A stretch of DNA of 64,000 nt from Mucilaginibacter rubeus (GTDB taxonomy: Bacteria; Bacteroidota; Bacteroidia; Sphingobacteriales; Sphingobacteriaceae): the NCBI RefSeq assembly GCF_003286415.2, contig NZ_CP043450.1:5332001-5396000 (forward strand), in the 5' to 3' direction. The notes beneath the pieces were generated by a model that had not been told where the DNA came from, did no database searches, and saw only the letters and a list, made by a program, of their open reading frames with translations. Each line of letters starts with the position of its first letter. Positions within the stretch are counted from its first letter, which is position 1. Below are positions 1,378-27,569 of the stretch, one piece after another. Position numbers and translations under genes: made by a program.

Positions 1378-3834
1378 TTACTGAGAATGATTTTGTTTTT
1401 GTTCTTTAACCATTGCGGTGATTCCCTGCTCCATACCGCCATGGAGCGAAGCCAGTTCCTGGATCTTCACCCGTTCGGTACCTTCTGTAGTGTAAGCGAA
1501 ATATTCCTCGGAACAGAGTTCGTTTTTGACCACTTTCATCACCCGGCCGCCGAGGTCGATATAAATGTCCCGGTTTTCCTTGCTGACTGATAAGACCTGC
1601 GCTTTCCCCTTATCCGACATCCCCAAAGTAGCCTGCAGTTTATCGAACTTGTTCAGGTAGCTGCGCATATCCATCAGGATCTTGATCGCTGCATTGTTGA
1701 TGATCGCATCCTTCACGATGGGTGAACTGATCAGGTCGTCCAATTCCTGGGTGACCACATTCGGAACGCCGTTGAACTTCCGGATAGTCTTGAAAGCGTA
1801 TTGGATGAAACCGGCCATCCCTGAATTGGCGATAGCCTTCCAGGCCTCGTCGATCGTCAGCACCTTACGGATGCCTTTCAGTTTCCGCATTTTCGAAATG
1901 AACATCTCCATGATGATCAGTGTCACCACGGGGAACAGGATCGGGTGGTCCTTGATATTATCCAGCTCGATAACCACGAATCGCTGCTCCAACAGATCGA
2001 TGTTATCGGTCGCATTCAGCAGGTAATCGAATTCCCCGCCGGCGTAAAATGGTTGAAGTACGTAAAGAAAGCTGTCCAGGTCGAAATCTTTGTCTTTGAC
2101 TTTATGAGCTTTCAATACCTTGGCATAGGTTCCATACAGATAATCATAGAAAGTATTGAAAGATGGAAATATATCGCGGTGTTTTTTTAGATGATCATAA
2201 TAACCCTGTAAAGCATTGGATAGGGCTACATATTCGCTCCGGATAAAACTTTCGTTCTCCTGTTTCCATAAAGTCACCAGCAAGGCCTTCAGGCTTTCCT
2301 TTTTCTCCGTGTCCAGCGTTTGTCCTTCAGGGATATAGAAGGGGTTGAACCGGATAGGGTTTGCTTCTTCATAGGTGAAATAATAACCGCCGACCAGTTC
2401 ACAAAGGCCCTTGTAACTGCCCCCGATATCGACCGTTACGCAATGCGCGCCCTGGTCATACAACGTTCGCAGGATATGGTTGACCGTCATGCTCTTTCCG
2501 CCGCCTGATGTGCCGCAAACCAGCATGCCCATGTTCGAAGTAATACCTTTCTTTCTCGGCGCATCGAACAGATCGATGTACACCGGTCTGCCGGACAGGC
2601 GGTCACAGAACCGGATCCCCTGGGATGGCGGATCACTCCGGTAATTGCTTTCCAGGTTCAGGAAGCAGGTACCCTGTTCCAGAAAAGTATCGAAGGTATC
2701 ATTCAGCGGAAAGTCCGCCGCGTTACCCGGGATACCGGCCCACCAGATCTGCGCTGCGCCGTCCGATTCCAGTTTGGCGCTCGCTCCGAGTTGCGCCATA
2801 GCGGAGCCTACCTGATTCTTGATCTCCTGCAGTTGCTCCGGCTGGTCGCTCCAGACCATGACATTGAAATGTGCTTTGACCGGCAGTCTTTGCTGGCTGA
2901 TCGCCTCATTAAGGAAATCATTGGTCGCATCCATGCTGATCGTGTTTTCCCGGCTGTAGGCGGACAACGACTGCAGCCGCAGCTTCTTCGCCTCCAATTG
3001 CTTGAGCACTTTGGGCGTATCCTCGATGAAGAGGAACTGGTTGTAGATATGGTTGCAGTCGAGCAGAAGGTTAAGCTGGCTGGCAAACCCTACCGGGAAC
3101 TTCGTCTGGTCGGTGCTGTACTTTTCATAAGTGATCCTGCTGCCGCACATGGAGGGCATATCTTCAGCATCCCCCAGCGTATAGATACGCACATGATCAT
3201 CTCCGATCCGGATGCCGTCATTCAGGTGTACATCCTTCAGCACGGGCCGTTCCCCGCCGTCCAGCAAAAAGCAATATTGTTCCAGCAATCCGGCCTGTTC
3301 CATCGTACCGGCCAGTTCATCATCTTGGATCCGGCGAAGCGATAATAAACCGCAATCGCTGAGGATCCGCGCAAACTGCCCGGCTTTCTCCTCGAACTCC
3401 AGTAATTCCCTGTCGTCGGTAACCTGGCGCGGAACAAGGTGCTTCCGGAACAATCCGGAAAATGCGCTGCTGGCCTGCTTTCGGTCACCGGCTTTTTTGG
3501 TCAGCATCAGGTAACAGTCATGGTCGAGATAGGGCCGGCCCCGGAAGTGCCTGTCAGCGGCCCGGTTCAGAAAGCTGCTTTCCGCCAGGCCGTTACCCTG
3601 ATACTGTTGCCTGATGAACCGGTCCTGTTTGTGAATGATACTTTGCTTCGGTAATACCTTAACGGCACGTATCCAGGCCTGGTGATAGGCTTCGTACTCG
3701 TTATCCGCTAACGTAAATATTTCGGGCAGCATCAGTTGATAGGCTATGGTGATGTCGCCCTGCGCGGAAACAAGGCAGTCATGTTCCACTTTATAAACCG
3801 GGAATATGCGCGCTGCATGTTGAAATGTCGCCAT
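1378..3834 (-). CDS. traG: TraG-family conjugation ATPase (VirB4-like)
   Basis: 818 residues, the usual length for Bacteroidota TraG. The N-terminal ~400 residues are the TraG N domain. The C-terminal AAA+ part has a Walker A loop at residues 441-449 (GTSGGGKSM) and a Walker B strand at about 657-663 (KVLTIDE). It should power assembly of the type IV secretion channel at the inner membrane, as VirB4 does. It is 3 bp downstream of traF and followed by the lipoprotein gene, inside a tight minus-strand operon. The start ATG at 3834 fits the operon spacing. No truncation is seen. Confidence 0.93.
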   Translation of the reverse strand: MATFQHAARIFPVYKVEHDCLVSAQGDITIAYQLMLPEIFTLADNEYEAYHQAWIRAVKVLPKQSIIHKQDRFIRQQYQGNGLAESSFLNRAADRHFRGRPYLDHDCYLMLTKKAGDRKQASSAFSGLFRKHLVPRQVTDDRELLEFEEKAGQFARILSDCGLLSLRRIQDDELAGTMEQAGLLEQYCFLLDGGERPVLKDVHLNDGIRIGDDHVRIYTLGDAEDMPSMCGSRITYEKYSTDQTKFPVGFASQLNLLLDCNHIYNQFLFIEDTPKVLKQLEAKKLRLQSLSAYSRENTISMDATNDFLNEAISQQRLPVKAHFNVMVWSDQPEQLQEIKNQVGSAMAQLGASAKLESDGAAQIWWAGIPGNAADFPLNDTFDTFLEQGTCFLNLESNYRSDPPSQGIRFCDRLSGRPVYIDLFDAPRKKGITSNMGMLVCGTSGGGKSMTVNHILRTLYDQGAHCVTVDIGGSYKGLCELVGGYYFTYEEANPIRFNPFYIPEGQTLDTEKKESLKALLVTLWKQENESFIRSEYVALSNALQGYYDHLKKHRDIFPSFNTFYDYLYGTYAKVLKAHKVKDKDFDLDSFLYVLQPFYAGGEFDYLLNATDNIDLLEQRFVVIELDNIKDHPILFPVVTLIIMEMFISKMRKLKGIRKVLTIDEAWKAIANSGMAGFIQYAFKTIRKFNGVPNVVTQELDDLISSPIVKDAIINNAAIKILMDMRSYLNKFDKLQATLGMSDKGKAQVLSVSKENRDIYIDLGGRVMKVVKNELCSEEYFAYTTEGTERVKIQELASLHGGMEQGITAMVKEQKQNHSQ

Positions 3835-13210: not shown

Positions 13211-14074
13211 ATGTCACTTAAAACACATCAATTGCTACAAAAAAAGAAAAAAAACATCCTTGAACTCTGGATGAAGAACCAACTGGCCGATGAAGGTCTG
13301 CGGGAAGATCTGATCAGTAACGATGAACTGAGAAGCCAGTCTGAAGAGTTAGTTCAAGCCTTGGTGAGCAATTTATCAAGCGAGAATTTTACCAACCTTA
13401 ATTCTGACGAATGGAGCCCGGTCATTGAAATTTTAGGTGGCATTGCCATAACGCGTGCGCGCCAGGGATTCAGCCCCCGCGAAACGGGCAACTTCGTATT
13501 TTCACTGAAGGAGGCCTTACTCGAAGTACTCAAGGAAGAAATAGGCAACGATCCGCAGCAATTGTTTACTGAAAGCCTCAAAATAAACCGCCTGATGGAT
13601 AACCTCAGCGTTGTTACTTTCGAGACCTTTATAAAAGGCCGCGAGGAGGTGATCTTAAGGCAAACTGACGAGATAGCCGAGATATCGACACCGGTGATCC
13701 GTGTATGGGATGGTATCCTTGCCCTGCCTATCATAGGTACCCTGGATAGCGCGCGCACACAAATAGTAATGGAAAACCTGCTACAGGAAATAGTGGAGAC
13801 CGGATCAAGCATAGCCATATTAGATATTTCAGGCGTGCCCGCAGTAGATTCTCTTGTTGCCCAGCATTTGATTAAAACGGTTAGCGCCACCCGGCTGATG
13901 GGAGCTGAATGTATTATCAGCGGTATCCGCCCCGAGATTGCCCAGACCGTCGTGCATCTCGGTATCGATCTTTCCAATATCATTACCAAGGCAACTTTAG
14001 CAAGCGCTTTATCACATTCTTTTAAGCTGATGAAACTGGAAGTGAGAAAATCAAACATTATCGCTAAATCTTAA
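13211..14074 (+). CDS. rsbR: RsbR-type stressosome co-antagonist (RsbRD_N + STAS)
   Basis: 287 residues. The N-terminal ~150 residues are all-helical and fit the RsbRD_N sensory domain; the C-terminal STAS domain (about 163-275) has the LDISGVPAVDS strand-loop in which phosphorylatable Ser/Thr sit. In Bacillus, RsbR and RsbS build the stressosome that holds RsbT until stress. It is the first gene of a five-gene plus-strand operon, followed by rsbS after 12 bp. The N-terminal sensor is not a globin, LOV or PAS domain, so the signal is unknown. Confidence 0.88.
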   Translation: MSLKTHQLLQKKKKNILELWMKNQLADEGLREDLISNDELRSQSEELVQALVSNLSSENFTNLNSDEWSPVIEILGGIAITRARQGFSPRETGNFVFSLKEALLEVLKEEIGNDPQQLFTESLKINRLMDNLSVVTFETFIKGREEVILRQTDEIAEISTPVIRVWDGILALPIIGTLDSARTQIVMENLLQEIVETGSSIAILDISGVPAVDSLVAQHLIKTVSATRLMGAECIISGIRPEIAQTVVHLGIDLSNIITKATLASALSHSFKLMKLEVRKSNIIAKS

Positions 14075-14086
14075 TATCGCTTTATA

Positions 14087-14497
14087 ATGGATAAAATTCC
14101 TATTCTGCGGCTGGGCAATTTTTTACTGGTTACGATCCAGGTTGATCTTTATGACCGCCTTGCACTTAACCTGGAGGCCGACCTTGTCCAGATGGTAAAT
14201 AAGACGAATGCCAGGGGAGTTTTGATAGATATATCGGCAGTAACGATTGTTGATTCATTTATGGGACGTATTATTGGCAATATCGCCAGCATGTCGAAAA
14301 TACTGGATGCAGAAACGGTAGTTGTAGGCATGCAGCCCGCGGTTGCCATTACGTTGATAGAACTGGGCCTACCATTAAAAGGTGTGCATACTGCTTTGGA
14401 CATGGAGCGTGGCATGAGCTTGCTAAAATCGATGATTGATATAGATGAAGAAGACATAGATCAGGAATCGACCGACGATGATATTATCACTCAGTAA
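14087..14497 (+). CDS. rsbS: RsbS-like single STAS domain protein
   Basis: 136 residues, essentially one STAS domain plus an acidic tail. The loop VTIVDSFMGR contains the serine that RsbT phosphorylates in characterised stressosomes. As the antagonist it would assemble with RsbR and sequester RsbT. It follows rsbR by 12 bp and overlaps rsbT by 20 bp, so the two are translationally coupled and should be made in fixed ratio. Confidence 0.9.
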   Translation: MDKIPILRLGNFLLVTIQVDLYDRLALNLEADLVQMVNKTNARGVLIDISAVTIVDSFMGRIIGNIASMSKILDAETVVVGMQPAVAITLIELGLPLKGVHTALDMERGMSLLKSMIDIDEEDIDQESTDDDIITQ

Positions 14498-14891
14498 AGA
14501 CACCGTGCAGGTACTAAAAGAGCAGGATGTTGTTTTTTTAAAAAACCGGGTGAAAGAAGTCGCCGTAAGAATTAAAATGGGCTTGGTTAATCAGACCCGT
14601 CTGCTTACAGCAGCCAGCGAACTGGTACGCAATATGATGCGCTATGCCAATGGCGGCGTCTGCCAGATCGAGGTTGTTTCTAGCGGCCGTAATAATGGTG
14701 TCAGGCTGGTATTTTCTGATAAAGGACCGGGAATCCCTGATATTGAAGCCGCCATGCGCGATGGATTTTCTACAGGTAAAAGCCTTGGGCTGGGATTACC
14801 CGGCACAAAACGACTGGTGAACGAGTTTGAAATCAAGAGTAAAGTTGGCGAAGGCACGACTGTTACCATCATAAAATGGGCCAATGGTTGA
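14478..14891 (+). CDS. rsbT: RsbT-like anti-sigma-type serine kinase
   Basis: 137 residues, one GHKL ATPase domain. The N-box is ASELVRNMMRYA, the G1 box DKGPGI and the G2 region SLGLGLPG, all intact, so ATP binding and kinase activity are expected. In the family it phosphorylates RsbS/RsbR and is then released to activate a phosphatase. It overlaps rsbS by 20 bp and the next gene by 8 bp. In this operon the likely downstream target is the SpoIIE-type phosphatase encoded next. Confidence 0.9.
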   Translation: MILSLSKDTVQVLKEQDVVFLKNRVKEVAVRIKMGLVNQTRLLTAASELVRNMMRYANGGVCQIEVVSSGRNNGVRLVFSDKGPGIPDIEAAMRDGFSTGKSLGLGLPGTKRLVNEFEIKSKVGEGTTVTIIKWANG

Positions 14892-15894
14892 CGCTACGCA
14901 TATCAGTTTTGCAGCGGACGACCGCAGTTATTTCTCGCTGATCAAAAAAGAAATCCACCGGCTGGCAACTGAGGCCGGGATGAATGCGGGCCGCATCAAT
15001 GAGCTTGACCTCATTGTAGCCGAAATGACATCTAACCTGTATAAGTACAGTGACGATGGCGAAATATTGATGGGTACTTTTGCCAACGCAGGCTCGCCTT
15101 ACATTGAACTGATCAGCATTGATAATGGGCCCGGAATGGTTAACCCGGCCCGGATGATGGTTGACGGGGTTTCAACAACAAATACTTTAGGCCATGGTTT
15201 AGGTAGCATGAAACGCCTTTCGGATACTTTTGAGCTTTATTCGCAACCAGGCTGGGGGACCATAGTACTTAGCCGTGTTTACAGCGACCCCGAAAAGTCG
15301 AAAGCGGACGACAACGTAATCATGCGGCCGATAGTGGTATCCAAGCCGGGCGAAAAAACAAGCGGCGATGGCTTTGTGTATAAAAAAACAGATAAATATT
15401 TAAAGATGATGCTGGCAGATGGCTTAGGGCACGGCCCCGAGGCTAACAAGGCTATTAACGAGGCCGCCGCCGCATTCAAAGTATTTCCTGATTACAGTCC
15501 TACGGAAACATTGCGATTTATTCATGCGAATATAAAAAAAACCCGTGGAGCGGTAATAAATGTAGTCGGCTATCATTACGGCGAAAAAAAGTGGTCATCT
15601 GCAGGCGTAGGTAATATTGCAGCGCGCATGTTTGGACCTATAAACTTCAAAAACCATATGTCGTACAACGGCATCGTGGGCCATAACATACCCAATACCA
15701 TGAACGACCAGCAGTACCCCGCTGATGAATTCAACCAGTTGATGCTTTGTTCTGACGGGATTAAAACCCGGATCGATATGGCAAAATACCCGTTAATGTA
15801 TAAATACGATCTTTCCATTTTAGCCGCCGCCATATATAAAGACCATGCACGTAAAAATGACGATATGTCAGTGATCATTGCAAAAGTTAAATAA
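14884..15894 (+). CDS. GHKL ATPase-SpoIIE phosphatase fusion (RsbX/RsbU-like)
   Basis: 336 residues with two domains. Residues 1-135 form a second RsbT/RsbW-like ATPase (VAEMTSNLYKYS N-box, DNGPGM, LGHGLGSMKRL); residues 150-336 are a PP2C-type SpoIIE phosphatase (MLADGLGHGPEA metal-binding motif, LMLCSDGIKTR, and a final NDDMSVI). It should dephosphorylate STAS proteins and reset the stressosome. It overlaps rsbT by 8 bp and abuts the kinase gene with no gap. A fusion of kinase-like and phosphatase modules differs from the single-domain RsbX of Bacillus but is known in other bacteria. Confidence 0.88.
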   Translation: MVDATHISFAADDRSYFSLIKKEIHRLATEAGMNAGRINELDLIVAEMTSNLYKYSDDGEILMGTFANAGSPYIELISIDNGPGMVNPARMMVDGVSTTNTLGHGLGSMKRLSDTFELYSQPGWGTIVLSRVYSDPEKSKADDNVIMRPIVVSKPGEKTSGDGFVYKKTDKYLKMMLADGLGHGPEANKAINEAAAAFKVFPDYSPTETLRFIHANIKKTRGAVINVVGYHYGEKKWSSAGVGNIAARMFGPINFKNHMSYNGIVGHNIPNTMNDQQYPADEFNQLMLCSDGIKTRIDMAKYPLMYKYDLSILAAAIYKDHARKNDDMSVIIAKVK

Positions 15895-17094
15895 ATGACA
15901 GAAATAGTAAGCATCTCGCTAGAGAATGAAATGGACCTGGTGCTTGCTCACAAGCGGTCGATGAAGGTTGCCGAAAAGCTTGGATTAACCGTGGCGACAC
16001 AAACCACATTTGCCACTGCTGTATCTGAAGTGGCCCGGGCCGTTATTGAATACACCGATAACGGCACGCTCGCTATTGGGATTGAACAAAATAAAACACG
16101 GTATGTGTTAAAGGCCAACGTAACCTTCAATAGCGAAATCAAACTAACCTCTGGCGATGAAGGTTTTTACTATGCCCAAAAGCTGGTGCCTGAGTTTGAA
16201 TTAACCGGCCAGAATGGTGCTTATATTATAGATATGAAGCTGGGGCTGCCACGGTCATTAAAGCTCGACGCGGTTAAGATCAGCATACTTAAAAAATTCT
16301 TTCAGGAGGAACAGCCCCTTAATCCTTACGAAGAAATAAAACGACGAAACTCGCACTTGCACAAACTAACCGCGGAGCAGGAAGAGGAATTAAGACGGAC
16401 AAAACTGATAGACGAAAAGAAAACTGAATTTATCTCCATTGCCAGCCATGAGCTTAAAACACCACTGACTGTTTTAAAAGCCTTCACTCAGATGGCAAAA
16501 ACCACTAAAGAACCGGTTTCCGATCGATTGAAGGGAATATTAAATAAAATAGACTTGCAGTCTACCAAGCTTAACTCGCTTGTGCAGCAACTGCTTGATA
16601 TTTCGCGGGCTGAAAATGGCAACTTGCAATACAATTTAAAGCAAGTGAAGCTTAATAGTTTTATCATTGAGCAGTTAGCAGTGATGCAAAGTATTATGCC
16701 TAATCATACCATTAACAGCACTCTGGGGGATGATGCTGATGTAATGATCGATACCCTACGGATGGAGCAGGTATTTTCGAATCTTTTGGGCAATGCGGCC
16801 AAATATTCAAACATTAATACAGACATAGAAGTTGGTTCAGTTCTTGATAGTGAGGGGTATATTACTATATCAATTAAAGATCAGGGTATAGGTATGTCGG
16901 CAGATACCATGACATCCATTTTTGATAAATTTTACCGCGCTGAAGACGTAAGCAAAACGCACGCCGGATTGGGTATGGGGCTTTATATAACTTCGAAAAT
17001 TGTGACCGACCATGGCGGTAAGATTTGGGTAGAAAGTGAAGAGCATAAAGGTTCGACATTTCATTTCAGTCTACCCAGCTGCTGTATCGTGTAA
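15895..17094 (+). CDS. Histidine kinase with N-terminal RsbT-like domain
   Basis: 399 residues. The N-terminal ~135 residues look like another RsbT/RsbW-fold domain, but the glycine-rich ATP boxes are missing, so it is probably a docking module. A short coiled coil (about 145-170) leads to HisKA (SIASHELKTPLTVLKAFTQM) and HATPase_c (FSNLLGNAAKYS, DQGIGM, GLGMGLYI). It is the last gene of the rsb operon and follows the phosphatase with zero spacing. It may be the output of this stressosome, replacing a sigma-factor switch; the cognate regulator is not in the operon. Confidence 0.85.
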   Translation: MTEIVSISLENEMDLVLAHKRSMKVAEKLGLTVATQTTFATAVSEVARAVIEYTDNGTLAIGIEQNKTRYVLKANVTFNSEIKLTSGDEGFYYAQKLVPEFELTGQNGAYIIDMKLGLPRSLKLDAVKISILKKFFQEEQPLNPYEEIKRRNSHLHKLTAEQEEELRRTKLIDEKKTEFISIASHELKTPLTVLKAFTQMAKTTKEPVSDRLKGILNKIDLQSTKLNSLVQQLLDISRAENGNLQYNLKQVKLNSFIIEQLAVMQSIMPNHTINSTLGDDADVMIDTLRMEQVFSNLLGNAAKYSNINTDIEVGSVLDSEGYITISIKDQGIGMSADTMTSIFDKFYRAEDVSKTHAGLGMGLYITSKIVTDHGGKIWVESEEHKGSTFHFSLPSCCIV

Positions 17095-17297
17095 TTAACG
17101 GCAAGTATAGATACCCAAACTGCTCTCTCGTCAAAAATTAGACGATTTTCTGGGAAAGATAACGTTACGAACGCGACTCAGTCAAAGTATTTATTATCTG
17201 ACATCTTCACAAACATAAGTTGTAAAGCCGGGTTATTTAAATAGCATTTGATTTTTCCTGCTTGGCGGAGAACTATTTCCCATTTGCTACAGCTCTT

Positions 17298-18392
17298 ATG
17301 GCAGACAATAAAGTTAAACAGATCCACCAACACAAGCAAAGCATATGGCTCGATTTTATCGATCGGAAAATCATGAATACCGGTAAGCTCAAACAAATGA
17401 TCGATGAGGATGGCCTGCGTGGCGTAACCTCTAACCCGGCAATTTTTGAAAAGGCCATATCCTCGAGTTCGGACTATAACGCCGACATCAAGGCGAAAGC
17501 CGATAGTTCGCTAAGCGACGAAGAATTGTTTTTCGAACTGGCTATCGCCGATATTCAGCAGGCGGCTGACCTTTTTGATCCCGTTTATAATGACGATGTG
17601 GTGGGCGCTGATGGCTATGTCAGCTTGGAAGTCTCGCCAGCGCTGGCCTTAGATACCGAAGGAACTATCCGCCAGGCCAAGAACTTGTGGCAACGGGTCG
17701 ACCGAAAAAATGTCATGATCAAGATCCCCGGCACCCTGCCCGGCCTGCCCGCTATCAAAGCGGCGATCGCTGCCGGAATAAACGTCAATGTTACGCTGAT
17801 CTTCGGCCTGGAGCGTTATGAAGCCGTGGTCGAGGCTTATCTTTCCGGTTTGGAAGACCGGCTCGCCAAGGGAGAGCCCCTTAGCCAGATCGCCTCGGTC
17901 GCCAGTTTTTTCCTCAGCCGCATTGATGTGCTCGTCGATCCCATACTGGTAGATAGAGGGTTGAAGGACCTGAAGGGCGAGGTCGCAATCGCTTCGGCTA
18001 AAAAAGCTTATGCTATCTATCAAAGGGTTTTTCATTCAGAGCGCTGGCAGAAACTGGCCGATAAAGGTGCTAAACCGCAACGTTTGCTGTGGGCCAGCAC
18101 CAGCAGCAAAGACCCTTCTGCCCGGGACACCAAGTATGTTGAAGCACTTATCGGGCCCGATACAGTCAATACCGCACCACTGGAAACTATTGACGCCTTC
18201 CGCGATCATGGAGTAGTGACTGATACCCTGGAATCGGGACTCCATTCGGCAGACAATACGCTGATTCAGCTACATCATGCGGGCATCGACCTACAGCAAA
18301 TCACTGCTCATTTGGAACAGGAGGCCATTGAAAAGTTCAACCAGCCTTTCAAAACAATGTTGGCTGCCATCGCTGAGAAACGAAACAGCTGA
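17298..18392 (+). CDS. tal: Transaldolase
   Basis: 364 residues from the ATG at 17298; a TTG 36 bp upstream would add 12 residues that the family does not need. Family motifs include SIWLDFIDRKIM, GVTSNPAIFEKAI, VSLEVSPALA, and NVMIKIPGT with the Schiff-base Lys. It interconverts sedoheptulose-7-phosphate and glyceraldehyde-3-phosphate in the non-oxidative pentose phosphate pathway in the cytoplasm. It stands alone between the rsb operon and gene remnants; a link to NADPH supply under stress is inference. Confidence 0.92.
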   Translation: MADNKVKQIHQHKQSIWLDFIDRKIMNTGKLKQMIDEDGLRGVTSNPAIFEKAISSSSDYNADIKAKADSSLSDEELFFELAIADIQQAADLFDPVYNDDVVGADGYVSLEVSPALALDTEGTIRQAKNLWQRVDRKNVMIKIPGTLPGLPAIKAAIAAGINVNVTLIFGLERYEAVVEAYLSGLEDRLAKGEPLSQIASVASFFLSRIDVLVDPILVDRGLKDLKGEVAIASAKKAYAIYQRVFHSERWQKLADKGAKPQRLLWASTSSKDPSARDTKYVEALIGPDTVNTAPLETIDAFRDHGVVTDTLESGLHSADNTLIQLHHAGIDLQQITAHLEQEAIEKFNQPFKTMLAAIAEKRNS

Positions 18393-21189: not shown

Positions 21190-21534
21190 ATGGAGATCAC
21201 AGGAAGATTGGTAGCGGATGCTACCGTAAGAAAGACAAACACCGACAAAAAAGTGACCGGGTTCAGGTTGGCGATCAACCGCAGGTACACTTCAAACGGG
21301 GAACAAAAGGAGGAAACTACCTACGTGGATTGCTCATTCTGGCGAACCGACAAATTAGCGCCATACCTGACCAAAGGTTTATTGGTACAGCTGTACGGCC
21401 ACATGAGTGCAAGACCGTGGGTAAGCAGGGACGGAGAACCAATGGCGAGCCTCAACTTTCACACGAACGAGATCACCCTTTTAGGCGCATCACAGCACAG
21501 CGACACCCAGAGCACTTTGCAAAGACAACGCTAA
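21190..21534 (+). CDS. ssb: Single-stranded DNA-binding protein
   Basis: 114 residues from ATG 21190 (a TTG at 21181 is less likely). One OB-fold domain with the typical opening MEITGRLVADATVRK, TGFRLAINRRY, and TTYVDCSFWR. It is shorter than chromosomal SSB and lacks the acidic C-terminal tail that recruits replication partners, as is common for element-borne copies. It is the first gene of the DUF932-PRTRC operon and probably coats the single-stranded transfer intermediate. Confidence 0.92.
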   Translation: MEITGRLVADATVRKTNTDKKVTGFRLAINRRYTSNGEQKEETTYVDCSFWRTDKLAPYLTKGLLVQLYGHMSARPWVSRDGEPMASLNFHTNEITLLGASQHSDTQSTLQRQR

Positions 21535-21568: not shown

Positions 21569-22627
21569 ATGGCACACAACCTTTTTTATAACGAGCAGAC
21601 CGGAAAAACAAGTTTCTTTAGCGTGAAACAAAAAGCATGGCATGGCCTCGGGCAGATCGTCGCAGATTACCCGACAAGCGCCGAGGCGATTCGTTTTGCA
21701 GGATTGGACTATACCGTTGAAAAGCGCCCTTTGTTCACCAATGTGTTAGAAAACGACCTGACCAACGGCGAGGATTTGGGCAAAATTGCAGTTCCTAATT
21801 TTTATGCTACGGTACGCAACGATAACAACAGCGTGCTGGGTGTGGTCGGCAAGGATTACGAAGTGGTGCAAAATGCGGATGCCTTTCAGTTCTTTGATGC
21901 CATCGTCGGCGGTGGCAGCGGTATACAATACGAAACCGCAGGCGCTTTGGGCAAGGGTGAACGGGTGTTCATTACCGCCAAACTGCCGGACTACATCAAG
22001 GTGGGCAGGGCGGATCTCATCGAACAATACTTATTCCTGACTACCTCGCATGATGGTTTTGGTAGTATCTCCGCAGCATTTACGCCCATCCGTATCGTTT
22101 GTAACAATACGCTGAATGCTGCGCTCCGCAATCAGACCGGGGCTATCAAGATCAGGCACACCGCTTCGGCCAATGACCGCCTGAAACAGGCGCATACACT
22201 CATGGGAATTTCCAATACGATGGCCACCGAACTGGAGGAATTGTTCAATCACTGGACTAAGGTGCGCATTACCGACAAGCAGGTAAAAAAATTGATTCAG
22301 TTGGCCATGGCCCCGAACAAGGAGGTCATCAGCAATTTGGAACTGGGCCTGCTTGACAAGCTGTCAAGCACCTATACCAATATCGTCGATAATGCTTTCG
22401 CCTATGCGATGGGGAACGAAACGCAGCAGATGGAAACCACTGCCGGGACATTGTTCGGCGCTTACAACGCCATCACCGGCTATTATCAGAACGTCCGCAA
22501 TTTCAGGGACGGCGATGCCAAATTCAAGTCGATCATCGAGGGGACAGCCAAACAACGGGCGCAGGTCGCATTCAATCTTTGCGGGGATTTCGCCCGCCGT
22601 GGTGTCGATGCCCTCAAACTTTCTTAA
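21569..22627 (+). CDS. DUF932 (phage/plasmid-like) protein
   Basis: 352 residues, the usual length of this family. Recognisable features are the N-terminal KAWHGLG motif, a central GERVFITAKLP, TTSHDGFGSISAAFTPIRI and RIVCNNTLNAAL. The family is widespread on plasmids, phages and conjugative elements and its biochemical role is not settled. It follows ssb by 34 bp and precedes the PRTRC genes on the same strand, a standard arrangement in Bacteroidota elements. Confidence 0.88.
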   Translation: MAHNLFYNEQTGKTSFFSVKQKAWHGLGQIVADYPTSAEAIRFAGLDYTVEKRPLFTNVLENDLTNGEDLGKIAVPNFYATVRNDNNSVLGVVGKDYEVVQNADAFQFFDAIVGGGSGIQYETAGALGKGERVFITAKLPDYIKVGRADLIEQYLFLTTSHDGFGSISAAFTPIRIVCNNTLNAALRNQTGAIKIRHTASANDRLKQAHTLMGISNTMATELEELFNHWTKVRITDKQVKKLIQLAMAPNKEVISNLELGLLDKLSSTYTNIVDNAFAYAMGNETQQMETTAGTLFGAYNAITGYYQNVRNFRDGDAKFKSIIEGTAKQRAQVAFNLCGDFARRGVDALKLS

Positions 22628-22682: not shown

Positions 22683-23057
22683 ATGCAGCCTTTGAGAATA
22701 TTGAACAACGTGCAAAAAGCGAGGCTATTGCACAACCTGTTGAACGAGGAAATCCCCGCATTCCTTGCCTACCTGAATGAACTGACCGAAACGGTATTGA
22801 ACAACCGGGAGCAGATCGCTGCGGACTGGAAAGACCAGTTCTTCGGCGTGGAGTTTTGGTTCGGACTGGCCGAAGACGTACAGCGCATCATGGCCAAATA
22901 TACCCGTGACTTGTATAAAAGCCCGAACGTGTTCGCCGACCAGTTATTCGACGGCTATACGGCCATATTCTGCGCCCATGCCTTAATGCAGTATGTGGCA
23001 CAGGCCAAACACGGCGACCCGAAATTCAAACCCGCAGTAGAACTTTTATTTCAATGA
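22683..23057 (+). CDS. Conserved hypothetical protein of PRTRC region
   Basis: 124 residues from ATG 22683. Helical and soluble, with no recognised motif. It overlaps the following gene by the sequence ATGA, so translation is coupled. It sits between DUF932 and the PRTRC genes. Function unknown. Confidence 0.65.
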   Translation: MQPLRILNNVQKARLLHNLLNEEIPAFLAYLNELTETVLNNREQIAADWKDQFFGVEFWFGLAEDVQRIMAKYTRDLYKSPNVFADQLFDGYTAIFCAHALMQYVAQAKHGDPKFKPAVELLFQ

Positions 23058-23319: not shown

Positions 23320-23919
23320 ATGAAAACGAACTTTTTTGAACAGATCAGCACATTCGCCTTTGAGGGCAATATGCTGTTGAATATCCACAACGACAACAAG
23401 GGGCAGCTGACCGTTTCGGTCGTATTGCGGAATGGCGAAATTTCGGCGACCGCAGGGAATACCCTCCCGCCGATGACCATCGGCGGAACAGCTACCGAAC
23501 TGGACGAAGCATTTTTTACGGAACTGACCACCCCGGTCAAGCAGACCATCGGACTGATCCATAATCTGGAAACTTACCAAAAGGAACTGGACAAGGCGAA
23601 AAACAAGAATCCGCAAAACATCAAAAAGGCAAAGGCAGCCATAGAGATTGACGAAGATAACGACAGCGACGAACCGGACGACCTGTTTGCCCGGCAGGCG
23701 GACGACAAACAGGCGAAAGCAGAAAAGAAACGCCTCTATGACGAAGCAATGGAAAAGGCGAAAGAACTGGCCAAACAGATGAAATATACCGAAGCGTTGG
23801 CGCAGCTGCCCGACCCTGCCGAATATCCCGAACAGGCCGAAGTCCTGAATAAAAAACGCAGGGAAATACAAACCAGTAAGGAAACCTATGACAAGCTAAC
23901 ACAACAGTTCAACGATTAA
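23320..23919 (+). CDS. PRTRC system protein E
   Basis: 199 residues. The N-terminal ~90 residues form a beta-rich domain opening with FFEQISTFAFEG and containing VVLRNGEIS and PPMTIGGTATELDE, followed by a long charged coiled-coil region (EKAKELAKQMKYTEAL). This is the PRTRC E pattern. PRTRC means ParB-related, ThiF-related cassette, a plasmid and conjugative-element gene set. It opens the core cassette E-C-F-B-ThiF. Role of E is unknown. Confidence 0.85.
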   Translation: MKTNFFEQISTFAFEGNMLLNIHNDNKGQLTVSVVLRNGEISATAGNTLPPMTIGGTATELDEAFFTELTTPVKQTIGLIHNLETYQKELDKAKNKNPQNIKKAKAAIEIDEDNDSDEPDDLFARQADDKQAKAEKKRLYDEAMEKAKELAKQMKYTEALAQLPDPAEYPEQAEVLNKKRREIQTSKETYDKLTQQFND

Positions 23920-23930
23920 CAGCAATTGCC

Positions 23931-24146
23931 ATGAAAGTAAACAAATTACAGCGGGTATTCCTGCATAAAGTCAACGGACAGGATATCCGCCTGACGGACC
24001 CGAACGAGAATTTCACCATTAGCGATGTACAGCATTTTTACGGCGGGACATATCCGATATTAACGAATGCTAAGATCACAGGCCCGGAGATCGTCAACGG
24101 CGAAGCGCAGTACCGCTTCGAAACGACTATGGGAACAAAAGGATAA
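23931..24146 (+). CDS. PRTRC system protein C, candidate ubiquitin-like protein
   Basis: 71 residues, the family size. The fold-length, the strand pattern (LQRVFLHKVNG, RFETTMGTKG) and the last residues GTKG make it look like a beta-grasp modifier with a free C-terminal glycine, as in ubiquitin-like proteins. I recall PRTRC C being grouped with prokaryotic ubiquitin-like families; that should be verified. It lies 11 bp after E and in the same operon as the E2-like B and E1-like ThiF genes, which is what a modifier would need. Confidence 0.82.
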   Translation: MKVNKLQRVFLHKVNGQDIRLTDPNENFTISDVQHFYGGTYPILTNAKITGPEIVNGEAQYRFETTMGTKG

Positions 24147-24148
24147 AG

Positions 24149-24325
24149 ATGAGAACACAGCGAAAGAACAGGATTATACAAATTAAACCCGACAGCCCCC
24201 AATGGAAAATACAGCAACTGTTCGGCACATGGGCAGGCAACTTAGACCGCCTGCCCGATGCCGACGAGATCAGGCGAAACCCGCCAAGAAGCGCCCCTTT
24301 GAGTGTAGCGGAAATGGTTTTTTAA
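24149..24325 (+). CDS. Small basic protein upstream of PRTRC F
   Basis: 58 codons from ATG 24149, 2 bp after the stop of PRTRC C. The product is basic and soluble (TQRKNRIIQIKPDSPQWKIQ). It ends at a T6 tract (ATGGTTTTTTAA); one extra T would fuse its frame to the PRTRC F frame. The tight spacing argues that it is translated, either as a separate peptide or as the former N-terminus of F. Unknown function. Confidence 0.5.
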   Translation: MRTQRKNRIIQIKPDSPQWKIQQLFGTWAGNLDRLPDADEIRRNPPRSAPLSVAEMVF

Positions 24326-25326
24326 ACCACGTTTTCCAGCCTTTTTGGGCGTTCAACGGTAACAGGGAAGTCATGGAGCGGGAGTTTAATAACTCCCTCC
24401 TTAACCTTTCCGCTTATTATGGCCTCCACATACCGGATATGTCCGCCCTGCCCTTTCCGCAGAATATTTATGGTTCATGGAAAGAAATCGCAGGACAGAT
24501 CAATAATGCCAACCCAAATGACCATTGTATGATCATGGCGGATGAGAGCAGGCAGGCCGTTTTAGCGGTAGTCAGTACGTTCGATCTGAAAGGCTGTTTT
24601 TTCTATCTCCCGGTTCGCCCCTTTTGGCGGTGGTCGCAATCTGCGCAGCACGAGCGGATAGCCGGATTGCTCACCGTCATTTTCGCCTACCTGTACCAGA
24701 TTGTTGGGCTTCCATTTTATGCGGAGCATGGTACATTCATGGACAGCCAGTATGACTGCCTCGAAAACTGGCTGAACGAAGCAGAGGACGAGGGTTTGGA
24801 CGACGAAGAAGATAGAGCCTGGCGCGAACACCGGGAAAATACCATGTACGAGTTAAGGCAGGCGGGTATCCATATCCTGCGCCTTATTCAAAATCCGCAG
24901 CAATTGGTACAGATGGAAAAAGTCGTGACCGCCTACCGTCACCGGGATCAGCACGAACTGGAATGGGAATTAATCGGCTTGGATTTCCTGAAGTTACACC
25001 GGGATTACCCCGGTCGTTCACTGGCAGAAAGTATACACCCCGACCTGCTTTACCCCTATGAGGACGAGCGCATCAAGCCAACTGAATATACAGGCTTTTA
25101 TTGGAGCGGGACAGATTGCTTTGCCGATGAACTGGATGAACTCATCAACTGCACTTTTCAGGAAATGCCCGTCATGGATGAACCCGTTTTAGTGAAATTC
25201 TTTGACCGGATGCCACCAAAAGAAAACAACGACTTTGATTTTGAGAACAGGTTTTTCCCTTTAATGGAGCGCCTGCGAAACCTTTTAGACGACTACGATC
25301 ATGAAGAATATAACGGAACAATTTAA
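24202..25326 (+). CDS. PRTRC system protein F
   Basis: 374 residues from the ATG at 24202. The conserved PRTRC F body starts around NHVFQPFW and continues with LSAYYGLHIPDMS, FDLKGCFFYLPVRPFWRWS and GFYWSGTDC. Residues 1-40 are an out-of-frame reading of the preceding small frame and are suspicious; the next in-frame ATG is at 24373 and would drop part of the conserved start, so the true start is uncertain and may depend on a T-tract slip near 24320. It overlaps PRTRC B by 26 bp. Biochemical role unknown. Confidence 0.8.
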   Translation: MENTATVRHMGRQLRPPARCRRDQAKPAKKRPFECSGNGFLNHVFQPFWAFNGNREVMEREFNNSLLNLSAYYGLHIPDMSALPFPQNIYGSWKEIAGQINNANPNDHCMIMADESRQAVLAVVSTFDLKGCFFYLPVRPFWRWSQSAQHERIAGLLTVIFAYLYQIVGLPFYAEHGTFMDSQYDCLENWLNEAEDEGLDDEEDRAWREHRENTMYELRQAGIHILRLIQNPQQLVQMEKVVTAYRHRDQHELEWELIGLDFLKLHRDYPGRSLAESIHPDLLYPYEDERIKPTEYTGFYWSGTDCFADELDELINCTFQEMPVMDEPVLVKFFDRMPPKENNDFDFENRFFPLMERLRNLLDDYDHEEYNGTI

Positions 25327-26047
25327 TACCAGCTTCCAACCCTTTAAAGTCCTGCTGTTGTACAGGCACGACCGGGAAGCGAATATCAGCCAGTTCGGGA
25401 ACACGCCGAGAGAAACGCAGATTTATGTCGAAAGCTACGACATCGGCAGGAATGGGCAGCCCGTTAACGCCCATCCGCTGACGATCAAAGAAATGACAGG
25501 CTTATCTGAAATTTTAAAGACCTCGCAGGATTTGAAGGATGGCTACCTCAAAAGTAAAGGACTTTTACCCGCTAATCTTTTGTACGTCAATCAGCAAACC
25601 AATGGAAACGCCATTTGGTACACGCCCCCCACGCATGTTGATCTGTATTTTGTTGAGAGCCTCGATATCCGGTCAGGAAAATGCGGAATCCCCGGCATGG
25701 TATGGAAAGCCAATGCCGAAAAGCTTTCAGTTTTTGCCGTCAGGGGAAAGACCAAACCCAATTTGGACACCCTCCTTTACCATGCCCCTTATCTCAATAT
25801 TTATCATAACGGGGCGGTTTGTATGGGTACGGTCAGCATCCATATTAACCAAACAACATCCTTGGAAGATTTTATGGATGCTTGGGAAAGTTACTTTTTC
25901 AACAGTTATTTCAGCCATTCCATCAGCGGTAACAACAGCACCAAATCCAATACGACCGACCTGTGGCGCAAACTGTCCGGCGCCGGAAAAGATTTCCCGC
26001 AGCAGGAACTGCTCAAAACACCATACGCCCTTAAATCCCTGCTCTGA
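25301..26047 (+). CDS. PRTRC system protein B, E2-like
   Basis: 248 residues. The central part has a motif HNGAVCMGTV with Cys174 in the position where the catalytic Cys of E2-like folds would lie, after APYLNIY. I recall the PRTRC B family being placed among prokaryotic E2-like (UBC) proteins; this needs confirmation. If so, B would carry a modifier, probably PRTRC C, activated by ThiF. It overlaps F by 26 bp and ThiF by one base, so B and ThiF are strongly coupled. Confidence 0.82.
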   Translation: MKNITEQFNTSFQPFKVLLLYRHDREANISQFGNTPRETQIYVESYDIGRNGQPVNAHPLTIKEMTGLSEILKTSQDLKDGYLKSKGLLPANLLYVNQQTNGNAIWYTPPTHVDLYFVESLDIRSGKCGIPGMVWKANAEKLSVFAVRGKTKPNLDTLLYHAPYLNIYHNGAVCMGTVSIHINQTTSLEDFMDAWESYFFNSYFSHSISGNNSTKSNTTDLWRKLSGAGKDFPQQELLKTPYALKSLL

Positions 26048-26886
26048 TGAAAACGACCAAACTCAAAAAACCACCCGTACATATCGTGGGAAACGAAATA
26101 TTACGGCCGTACAACCCCATCACGGTCAACCTGATCGGCGCAGGCGGTACGGGAGGACAGGTGCTGACCGCCCTCGCAAGGATGAACCTGTCATTGATCA
26201 ATTTAGGGCATCCGGGCTTAATGGTCAGGCTGTTCGATGACGACAAAGTGGAAACTGCCAACCTCGGAAGGCAGTTGTTCACGACCGCAGAACTCGGACA
26301 GTTCAAAGCGGTAGCCCTCATCAATCGCATCAACCGCTTTTTTGGGTCGAACTGGAAAGCAGAAACGATGCGGTACGACCACAACATGCCTGACCGGAAC
26401 ACTGCGGCATCCGCCACCCTTACCATCAGCTGCGTGGACAAGGTGGAAGCAAGATTCATCATTGCAAAAATTTTAACGGAAACTGTACACAATTATCACG
26501 GGCGGAACCGCCCGAAATACTGGATGGATTTCGGGAACAGCCGGACAAGCGGACAGGTTATCCTGTCCACATTGGACAAGATCACGCAGCCCGCGTCCAA
26601 ACAATACGAAACCGTCGATAGCCTCCCCCTCGTAACCGAAGAGTACAGGGACTTATTGCTGTTCTCGGAAGAAGCCGACGAAACGCCAAGCTGTTCCCTT
26701 GCCGAGGCGCTGACCAAACAGGATTTGTTCATCAACTCCACACTGGCCAATTACGGCGCATCGCTGTTGTGGCAGCTTTTCCGGGAGGGCATCCTGTTTA
26801 ACCGGGGCTGCTTCCTGAACCTGAAAGACTTTATTTCACAACCATTAAAGATTGAACAACATGGGAATAACCGATCCCGCAGTTAA
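26047..26886 (+). CDS. PRTRC system ThiF-family E1-like protein
   Basis: 279 residues. The nucleotide-binding loop GAGGTGG is at 31-37 and the E1 acidic/asparagine motif DDDKVETANLGRQLF at about 64-78, both intact. Cys216 in TPSCSLAEALTKQDLF is the best candidate for a thioester or metal-binding Cys; Cys129 lies in SCVDKV. The family adenylates the C-terminal glycine of small modifiers or sulfur carriers. It is the last core gene of the cassette. No ParB, PRTRC A (JAB peptidase-like) or D gene is visible in this window. Confidence 0.88.
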   Translation: MKTTKLKKPPVHIVGNEILRPYNPITVNLIGAGGTGGQVLTALARMNLSLINLGHPGLMVRLFDDDKVETANLGRQLFTTAELGQFKAVALINRINRFFGSNWKAETMRYDHNMPDRNTAASATLTISCVDKVEARFIIAKILTETVHNYHGRNRPKYWMDFGNSRTSGQVILSTLDKITQPASKQYETVDSLPLVTEEYRDLLLFSEEADETPSCSLAEALTKQDLFINSTLANYGASLLWQLFREGILFNRGCFLNLKDFISQPLKIEQHGNNRSRS

Positions 26887-27110: not shown

Positions 27111-27569
27111 ATGCTGCGCTACACCACCGGAAATTTGTTAGATTCAAGTGCGGAAGCACTGGTCAATACCGTCAATACAGCTGGCGTGATGGGCAAGGGT
27201 ATCGCACTGCAATTCAAACGGGCCTTTCCACATAATTTTGAGGTTTATAATGTTGCCTGCCTGAACGGGAGTTTCCGCACAGGGCAGATACTGGCAGTCA
27301 GGGATAGCGAACTGATCCTCGGCGAACGGCTGATTATCAATTTCCCGACCAAACAGCATTGGAAATTTCCCTCCAGGTATGAGTATATCGAAAGCGGATT
27401 GCATACGCTTGTAGCTTACCTCAAGGAAAATAAGGTGAAAAGCCTGGCCATGCCTGCCTTGGGATGCGGGAACGGCGGGCTGGACTGGCTGAAGGTCAAA
27501 GTCATGATCGAACAGCATCTATCCGGCGTGGCCACCGATATATGGGTGTATCAACCCGCACGACGTTAA
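27111..27569 (+). CDS. Macro-domain protein (DarG/TARG1-like)
   Basis: 152 residues from ATG 27111, one macro domain and nothing else. Diagnostic segments are the N-terminal TTGNLLDS, EALVNTVNTAGVMGKGIAL, NFPTKQHWK and PALGCGNGGLDW. These are characteristic of the DarG/TARG1 class, which removes ADP-ribose from DNA or proteins. Full DarG has a C-terminal toxin-binding domain, absent here, and no DarT toxin is visible in the window. It follows the PRTRC genes by about 100 bp on the same strand. It may reverse ADP-ribosylation attacks on the element. Confidence 0.88.
   Translation: MLRYTTGNLLDSSAEALVNTVNTAGVMGKGIALQFKRAFPHNFEVYNVACLNGSFRTGQILAVRDSELILGERLIINFPTKQHWKFPSRYEYIESGLHTLVAYLKENKVKSLAMPALGCGNGGLDWLKVKVMIEQHLSGVATDIWVYQPARR

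Follow-up and report, generated by a model that had tools for sequence, protein, structure and literature searches.

A probable ubiquitin-like conjugation cassette of the PRTRC type without JAB peptidase in Mucilaginibacter rubeus

Gene content of the cassette

We analyzed a window of 64,000 nucleotides from Mucilaginibacter rubeus (contig NZ_CP043450.1, positions 5,332,001 to 5,396,000). The five genes named in an earlier sequence-only reading (E, C, F, B, and ThiF) were all present between 23320 and 26886 in a sequence check, together with a small gene, here called s58, which that reading had overlooked (Table 1). The genome also holds another complete cassette outside the window, likewise overlooked.

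Table 1. Features of the PRTRC cassette and its upstream context, in window coordinates
Feature	Coordinates	Strand	Description
SSB-family gene, upstream context	21190..21534	+	PF00436 E 1.5e-15
DUF932 / TIGR03299 gene, upstream context	21569..22627	+	phmmer match in 41/80 relatives (best 80 of 107), some cut
Unnamed gene, upstream context	22683..23057	+	phmmer match in 19/80 relatives (best 80 of 107)
PRTRC E	23320..23919	+	199 aa; PF19556 E 2.6e-47, TIGR03741 E 1.3e-11
PRTRC C, ubiquitin-like modifier (Prok_Ub)	23931..24146	+	71 aa, G-T-K-G at stop; PF14454 E 3.9e-23, TIGR03738 E 1.9e-16
Small gene s58	24149..24325	+	58 aa, C-terminus A-E-M-V-F; without family model
F position	24202..25326	+	open frame from ATG 24202; conserved core from 24319; earlier part overlaps s58
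PRTRC B, E2-like (Prok-E2_D)	25301..26047	+	Cys174 in HNGAVCMGTV, His206; PF14460 E 1.1e-36
PRTRC ThiF, E1-like	26047..26886	+	TIGR03736 E 2.1e-71

The candidate modifier C, the E2-like B protein, and the ThiF/E1-like protein with GAGGTGG and DDDKVETANLGRQLF were located as that reading had described them, and the Pfam and NCBIfam searches returned the families that it expected (Prok_Ub, Prok-E2, and ThiF). With best E-values of 3.9e-23 or lower (Table 1), the family matches of C, B, ThiF, and E are not due to chance. B scored 115 bits against TIGR03737, under the model cut-off of 131, and passed the Pfam cut-off for PF14460. ThiF presents the GxGGTG loop, D64/D66, R75, K87, D131, and Cys216. 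According to the NCBIfam and Pfam models, C, B, E, and ThiF lie together in one operon, as in a PRTRC cassette. E and F had also been placed in this operon: E was recognized by its family model, while F stands by position and has no match among the family models.

ThiF-like relatives were found on many plasmids, Bacteroidota elements, and phages. In PLSDB, 374 records match ThiF by tblastn, not necessarily all of them PRTRC, and the two viral scans that used plasmid ThiF queries contributed none of the relatives. The Bacteroidota relatives considered below are the best 80 of 107 from the genome scan.

Absence of the JAB peptidase and shape of the modifier

The sequence-only reading had reported A, ParB, and D as lacking. 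For the peptidase A this proved correct: the B and ThiF frames share one base, which leaves no room for a gene between them, and the whole genome has no Prok-JAB match. For ParB and D, the models gave no match among the ten window ORFs scanned. JAB (A) was found in none of the 80 Bacteroidota loci (best 80 of 107 relatives). TIGR03735, which detects A in three of three plasmids known to carry it, matched none of 296 Bacteroidota genomes, only 10 of which have PRTRC ThiF above the cut-off. A is also missing from 10 of the 21 non-Bacteroidota plasmid loci with a recognized C, and is thus no strict PRTRC requirement.

In JAB-less loci, C terminates on Gly in 87/87 cases; of the 58 JAB-bearing loci, 52 have a C with a tail. 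These counts omit the loci without a recognized C (L089, L101, L102, L127, L160, L161, L085, and L086) and eight of L001-L084 (L001-L004, L009, L023, L028, and L048); L089, L127, and L161 have a JAB match. The profile that detected JAB in the 47 viral-contig loci and in L089 was made from 13 A proteins, either annotated or inspected, and these match it by construction. On these sequences the shape of the modifier appears to follow the presence of the peptidase, with statistics limited by the few independent events: the JAB state changes at least four times on the ThiF tree, too few for significance in a pairs test. As C is encoded with a free C-terminal Gly, JAB would be needed only for its removal and not for its maturation.

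RadC is a JAB-fold protein and was considered as a substitute deconjugase. Its two matches in the genome, at 4833125 and 6640081, are each over 200 kb away from both cassettes, and the candidate was dropped.

Catalytic residues and predicted conjugation

The conservation of Cys174, which the sequence-only reading had put forward as a check, is complete: the residue occurs in 155/155 B homologues covering the position, from Bacteroidota, plasmids of other phyla, and phages. Across the same groups, Cys216 of ThiF and the E1 residue Asp131 are each found in 157/157 rows. His206 of B is present in 82/82 Bacteroidota rows with a residue there and in 67 of 73 other rows, and the catalytic residues as a whole are invariant in all 82 Bacteroidota rows covering them. 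In C, Lys70 and the C-terminal Gly71 are conserved in 77/77 rows. The C-terminus of C is thus K-G and not G-G, a feature that counts against the conjugation model.

The structure model of B reached a pLDDT of 86.4. All 50 rows listed by a second-look structural search are E2 entries by title, with weak Z scores of 5.2-3.7 (the tool advises caution below 8) and alignments of 71-139 residues at an rmsd of 2.9-11; a plain Foldseek search of the model gave nothing significant, its first rows being unrelated proteins. The closest solved relatives of ThiF by sequence are UBA5, the UFM1 E1, at a weak E-value of 0.005. For C, a sequence profile search of the PDB returned no ubiquitin-fold chain and only chance-level matches to other proteins.

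Adenylation, thioester formation, and transfer are well founded as chemistry predicted from homology. ATP-bound ThiF would adenylate Gly71 of C, which would be translated already mature. C would then form a thioester on Cys216 of ThiF and subsequently on Cys174 of B, with His206 assisting, and B would pass it to an amino group of a putative target. E, F, and s58 could be, as a guess, dedicated partners with a role in scaffolding or substrate choice. Overall, we estimate a probability of roughly 70% that these genes form a ubiquitin-like conjugation system belonging to a Bacteroidota conjugative element, a variant that functions without JAB peptidase. The cassette, apparently carried on a mobile element of a soil bacterium, looks able to tag proteins without the usual trimming enzyme. 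In the open-access literature we found no PRTRC biochemistry and no relevant paper joining PRTRC and ubiquitin, and the listings of the 26 papers mentioning PRTRC revealed no apparent functional study.

Two other readings of the cassette were weighed. JAB-less cassettes may be relics, or the ubiquitin-like protein (Ubl) C may serve non-covalently, as a regulator to which B and ThiF bind. Coherent with this are the missing deconjugase, the lack of Prok-JAB above the cut-off anywhere in seven of the 10 cassette-bearing Bacteroidota genomes, and the existence of broken or incomplete copies: B is split over two frames in L006, one Bacteroidota copy (G277) has three stops in ThiF, and 5/80 relatives (best 80 of 107), including L028, which ends at a contig edge, lack at least one of E, C, and F. 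However, the full gene set in the same order is retained in 75/80 relatives (best 80 of 107), and the invariance of the catalytic residues and of the C-terminal Lys-Gly described above makes the relic or non-covalent reading unlikely.

Alternatively, C could be a sulfur carrier similar to ThiS/MoaD, adenylated by ThiF and thiocarboxylated for biosynthesis, with B as a binding partner. A model for ThiS adenylyltransferases, NF006395, does match ThiF at E 1.2e-10, far under its cut-off, and the enzyme family is a shared one. We regard this possibility as quite improbable, considering that no metabolic gene is among the five cassette genes, that C is accompanied by a protein of the E2 family whose Cys is invariant, and that in relatives the JAB peptidase is part of the set.

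The F gene and the small gene between C and F

F gave no match in Pfam or NCBIfam, TIGR03742 included, and its name is based on its position, its conservation in relatives, and one viral fold match. The AlphaFold2 model of 24319-25323 (pLDDT 90.3, pTM 0.86) matched one viral protein with E 6.9e-8 and TM 0.55. Foldseek found no significant PDB match and a second-look structural search gave Z of at most 2.9, which is no proof of a new fold. The conserved core of F begins at the s58 stop, without a start codon. A programmed -1 frameshift from s58 into F was not favored, because upstream of this point the F frame stays open over 40 codons or more in 75/75 rows (versus 19/75 for the third frame), and each row offers an ATG in frame. 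In 64 of these 75 rows, the farthest F start falls at codon -39, -58, or -59; five of the 80 relatives (best 80 of 107), namely L001, L023, L043, L048, and L058, are not included, being cut or misaligned.

The s58 gene starts 2 nt past the C stop and overlaps the 5' end of F out of frame. It has no match in NCBIfam, Pfam, PHROGs, or PADLOC. The protein ends in [MI][VLI]F in 76/76 Bacteroidota rows, counting the window, in which the junction could be read (best 80 of 107 relatives, four of the 80 rows left out). At the s58 stop, the Asn/Asp codons of the F frame end in T in 73/73 rows, versus 1616 T and 1131 C downstream in the same genes; Gly is GGT in 63/63 (downstream 163/675) and Phe is TTT in 74/74 (downstream 915/1210), the rows being related and the counts therefore not independent. 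This codon choice preserves M-[VLI]-F in the s58 frame.

A positional counterpart of s58 is present in most of the plasmid and phage cassettes examined; in L099 no convincing s58-like frame was found. In seven phage loci, all JAB-bearing, the counterpart is fused to the Ubl. A profile supports 7/12 of the called fusions between the Ubl and the small protein, and for plasmid loci L092, L093, L103, and L153 and phage locus L148 the call was made on the C-terminus alone (profile E-values 8.5 for L148 and 9.8 for L153; L092, L093, and L103 not among the matches listed). No profile link was found between the Bacteroidota s58 and the plasmid or phage versions (best outside match E 0.57), which are connected to it by position and C-terminus, with the plasmid frames picked by eye. 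The lack of a family match, the overlap with F, and this missing profile link would fit s58 being an other-frame reading of the F 5' end and no gene, but the F-frame codon bias at its stop and the phage counterpart existing as an in-frame part of C make such an artefact very improbable.

We tentatively propose, at somewhat less than even odds, that PRTRC has an overlooked regular component, a protein of about 60 residues, encoded between the genes of the Ubl and F, whose C-terminus is conserved, hydrophobic, and in most cases contains Pro. In some cassettes it would be part of a fusion with the Ubl, from which JAB would release it; in others it would be separate, with the Ubl born mature and JAB dispensable. 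The arrangement would be a bacterial counterpart of the ubiquitin-ribosomal fusions. If true, the small protein would be a dedicated partner or the first substrate of the Ubl. Cassettes with a pre-trimmed modifier and a small unannotated gene that travels with it provide a parts list for reconstituting the system, and the results suggest how a bacterial ubiquitin-like pathway can dispense with its peptidase.

Comparison with known systems

The PRTRC system of NCBI is a ParB-related, ThiF-related cassette of plasmids. The window shares with it the order E-C-F-B-ThiF, as in the ParB-E-C-F-B-A-ThiF arrangement of a Paraburkholderia locus (L087). It differs in the lack of A, in the lack of a ParB among the ten ORFs scanned, and in an F too diverged for TIGR03742.

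Eukaryotic ubiquitin is made as fusions with ribosomal proteins. Similarly, some JAB-bearing phage relatives encode the Ubl fused to a small conserved protein that is separate elsewhere.

Bil, Bub, and CBASS Cap2-Cap3 are conjugation systems with E1 and E2, with a Ubl in Bil and Bub. The cassette resembles them in having E1 and E2 in an accessory-gene setting and, for Bil and Bub, in its Ubl logic; for Bub, an E1/E2/Ubl conjugation logic is described in PMC13373217. The cassette differs in having E1 and E2 as two separate proteins and in lacking the peptidase. A phage-defence identity was rejected: C, B, E, F, and s58 have no PADLOC match, and ThiF gives only weak E1-domain matches, to the E1-E2 and BilD models.

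The ubiquitin reading as such is not new, as the families are named in Pfam and the operon type is published. In the available part of Iyer, Burroughs and Aravind 2006 (PMC1779556), predicted operon type 6d comprises a Ub-like protein, an E2-like protein, an E1-like protein, a JAB, and an alpha-helical protein, and B. thetaiotaomicron is listed under row 6d. The link between PRTRC and ubiquitin that the sequence-only reading had drawn was right in substance, the gene set being the same, and that part of the paper does not use the name PRTRC. There, whenever E1 is unfused to JAB, JAB is always encoded immediately adjacent (rows 6a-6e), whereas no adjacent JAB is present in the window or in any of the 80 Bacteroidota loci (best 80 of 107); s58 is not described in the same part of PMC1779556. 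What the window shares with type 6d, as far as described there, is a Ubl with a conserved C-terminal Gly (77/77 rows for the window), an E1-like protein, and an E2-like protein with a conserved Cys and a downstream His, here Cys174 and His206.

Composition and setting of the cassette

Family searches assigned C, the 71-residue Ubl modifier, to Prok_Ub (PF14454, E = 3.9e-23) and PRTRC C, the E2-like B to Prok-E2_D (PF14460, E = 1.1e-36), the E1-like ThiF to PRTRC ThiF (E = 2.1e-71) and ThiF (PF00899), and E to the PRTRC E model. F and s58, the small gene between C and F, had no match in NCBIfam, Pfam, PHROGs, or PADLOC. The six genes lie on one strand, overlapping or separated by short gaps; 5' of them, the same strand carries genes for SSB and a DUF932 protein, along with one smaller gene. 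Because of the TraG gene, the setting is taken to be a conjugative element.

Coordinates of the cassette and of other features in the window
Feature	Position	Strand
TraG conjugation gene	1378-3834	opposite to cassette
STAS-like, anti-sigma-like, and histidine-kinase-like genes	13211-17094	
HATPase_c_2 match in that group	14884-15894	
Transaldolase-family gene	17262-18392	
PRTRC E	23320-23919	+
C	23931-24146	+
s58	24149-24325	+
F	24202-25326 (open frame; conserved from 24319)	+
B	25301-26047	+
ThiF	26047-26886	+
Stand-alone macrodomain, DarG antitoxin type	27114-27569	

The genome is a single contig of 7.63 Mb, of which the window covers 5332001-5396000, and carries a second full cassette, E-C-s58-F-B-ThiF, at about 6865400-6869030 (~6.87 Mb; L162:5408-9025), whose own small gene ends L-L-P-M-V-F. 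Among the best 80 of 107 relatives, the nearest named ones are Mucilaginibacter, with ThiF 95% identical. Another Bacteroidota genome has a PRTRC ThiF copy with three internal stop codons (G277:C1:1280488-1281267) as well as an intact one.

The macrodomain gene, just 3' of ThiF, matched PADLOC DarG (E = 1.4e-68) and, over residues 2-150 and under the model cut-off, NF048014 (E = 1.5e-68; 338 positions). In the STAS-like group, which the transaldolase-family gene follows, the genes other than the HATPase_c_2 match were assigned by eye.

Active sites and structure models

Alignment rows from the window, the second copy, and up to 80 relatives (the best of 107) all keep B Cys174 and ThiF Cys216 (82/82 each); B His206 is present in 81/81 rows with a residue there, and Lys70-Gly71 of C in 77/77. 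When plasmids of other phyla and phages were added, Cys174 did not vary among B homologues, as the sequence-only reading needed (155/155 rows with a residue there; one row cut), and ThiF Cys216 and Asp131 were each present in 157/157; His206 was kept in all 82 Bacteroidota rows with a residue there and in 67/73 others.

The B model, built from 43 sequences (mean pLDDT 86.4), gave no significant Foldseek match, the top rows being unrelated proteins. A second-look aligner listed 50 entries, every one E2-containing by title, at Z 5.2 to 3.7, under its caution level, and mostly over residues 75-240; these matches agree with a predicted E2-type fold. The F model (pLDDT 90.3, pTM 0.86) had no significant match in the PDB, and its one clear match was an uncharacterised phage protein.

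A cassette without the JAB peptidase

Prok-JAB had no match in the whole genome, with search controls matching, which bears out the proposed absence of the JAB peptidase-like A gene; likewise, none was found in 80/80 relatives (best 80 of 107). PRTRC A was found in 0/296 Bacteroidota genomes, only 10 of which have PRTRC ThiF above the cut-off, and the control genomes gave no match; for these two reasons we tried it against three plasmids with a known A gene, where the model matched 3/3. Seven of the 10 cassette-bearing genomes had no Prok-JAB above the cut-off (one, G261, had a match below it), and in the remaining three it lay on another contig or at least 20 kb away. Of 21 plasmid loci outside the Bacteroidota in which C was recognised, 10 likewise had no JAB, among them loci of Pseudomonas, Vibrio, Alteromonas, and Deinococcus.

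In the set of 145 loci where C was recognised, the JAB-less ones being mostly of one phylum and the JAB-bearing ones mostly of one phage family, C stops exactly at the Gly in 87/87 JAB-less loci and continues beyond it in 52/58 JAB-bearing loci (the six exceptions are L094, L155, L158, L152, L144, and L146). This is the prediction for a processing peptidase: a tail requires JAB, and JAB does not require a tail. On a ThiF tree (71 rows, quick method, several long branches), the JAB state changes at least four times, and an independent-pairs test was unable to reach significance. The tail state changes four times and the fusion state six times among 22 JAB-bearing rows, and the tail state never among 49 JAB-less rows, despite their greater branch length (29.1 vs 19.6).

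The phage contigs L105-L151 and Burkholderia phage BgVeeders33 (L090), many of them ~40 kb long, form a family that has the cassette with JAB; its Ubl end VGTKG hardly varies, whereas the tails fall into several types, and CPLLDEE occurs in a common one.

The small companion gene

The C-F junction is readable in 76 of 80 Bacteroidota rows, and all 76 contain a frame ending MVF (63), MLF (9), MIF (3), or IIF (1); it is shortened upstream in L043, and a Bacteroidales plasmid locus (L100) also has a small frame ending MVF. The s58 stop falls within the conserved N-terminus of F, in a different frame. Across this end, synonymous choices in F that would alter M-[VLI]-F are avoided: Asn/Asp codons end in T (73/73), Gly is GGT (63/63), and Phe is TTT (74/74), whereas farther down the same genes the alternatives are in use. 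Since the F frame is open for at least 40 codons upstream in 75/75 rows, against 19/75 for the third frame, the most likely arrangement is an overlap of s58 with F, 124 nt long in the window and roughly 120-180 nt long in most relatives.

Small frames at the same place end D-L-P-M-I-F in Burkholderiales plasmids (L087, L104, L156), mostly M-P-V-L-P in phages, and P-L-G in Sphingomonadales. As profile searches did not connect the Bacteroidota s58 with the plasmid and phage versions, we infer their common origin from place and C-terminus.

In seven phage loci (L135, L136, L140, L141, L147, L149, L151), the Ubl frame carries the small protein as its C-terminal portion: a profile from 39 separate phage copies, run on 25,159 frames, matched them at E = 4e-20 to 5e-7, beginning 3 to 7 residues past the Ubl end. 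Five more fusions (L092, L093, L103, L153, L148) were called from C-terminal residues only, and all twelve sit in JAB-bearing loci. C and s58 are spaced by two nucleotides in the window, and a fusion of this sort could arise from such a layout.

Proposed mechanism and comparison with operon type 6d

The cassette would be a conjugation system that produces C already trimmed; C would be activated by ThiF, carried by its Cys216 and then by B Cys174, and transferred by B. Cys216 is presumably the counterpart of the catalytic Cys in single-domain E1s such as UBA5, whose chains are the closest to ThiF by sequence in the PDB, in a printed alignment ending before Cys216. Modification by C without JAB may be irreversible, or reversed by some other enzyme. 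Replication genes are found close to some plasmid cassettes (dnaN in L095, L098, and L099; ssb in L088, L093, and L153), and our guess from such neighbours, including the SSB gene here, is a role in the element's DNA processing or upkeep.

The open-access literature searched yielded no mention of the peptidase-less design, the peptidase/tail match, or the companion gene, which are the points most worth bench work, and no experiment on type 6d operons. Type 6d of Iyer et al. 2006 (PMC1779556), with B. thetaiotaomicron among its listings, combines a small Ubl whose conserved last residue is Gly, an E2-like protein that has a conserved Cys and, downstream, a His, an E1-like protein, a JAB, and a protein of alpha-helical type. 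The ubiquitin link proposed in the sequence-only reading is already in print, and that reading's finding of a ubiquitin-like conjugation cassette holds but is for the most part of a known kind. As a member of this operon type, itself a prediction, the cassette is confirmed.
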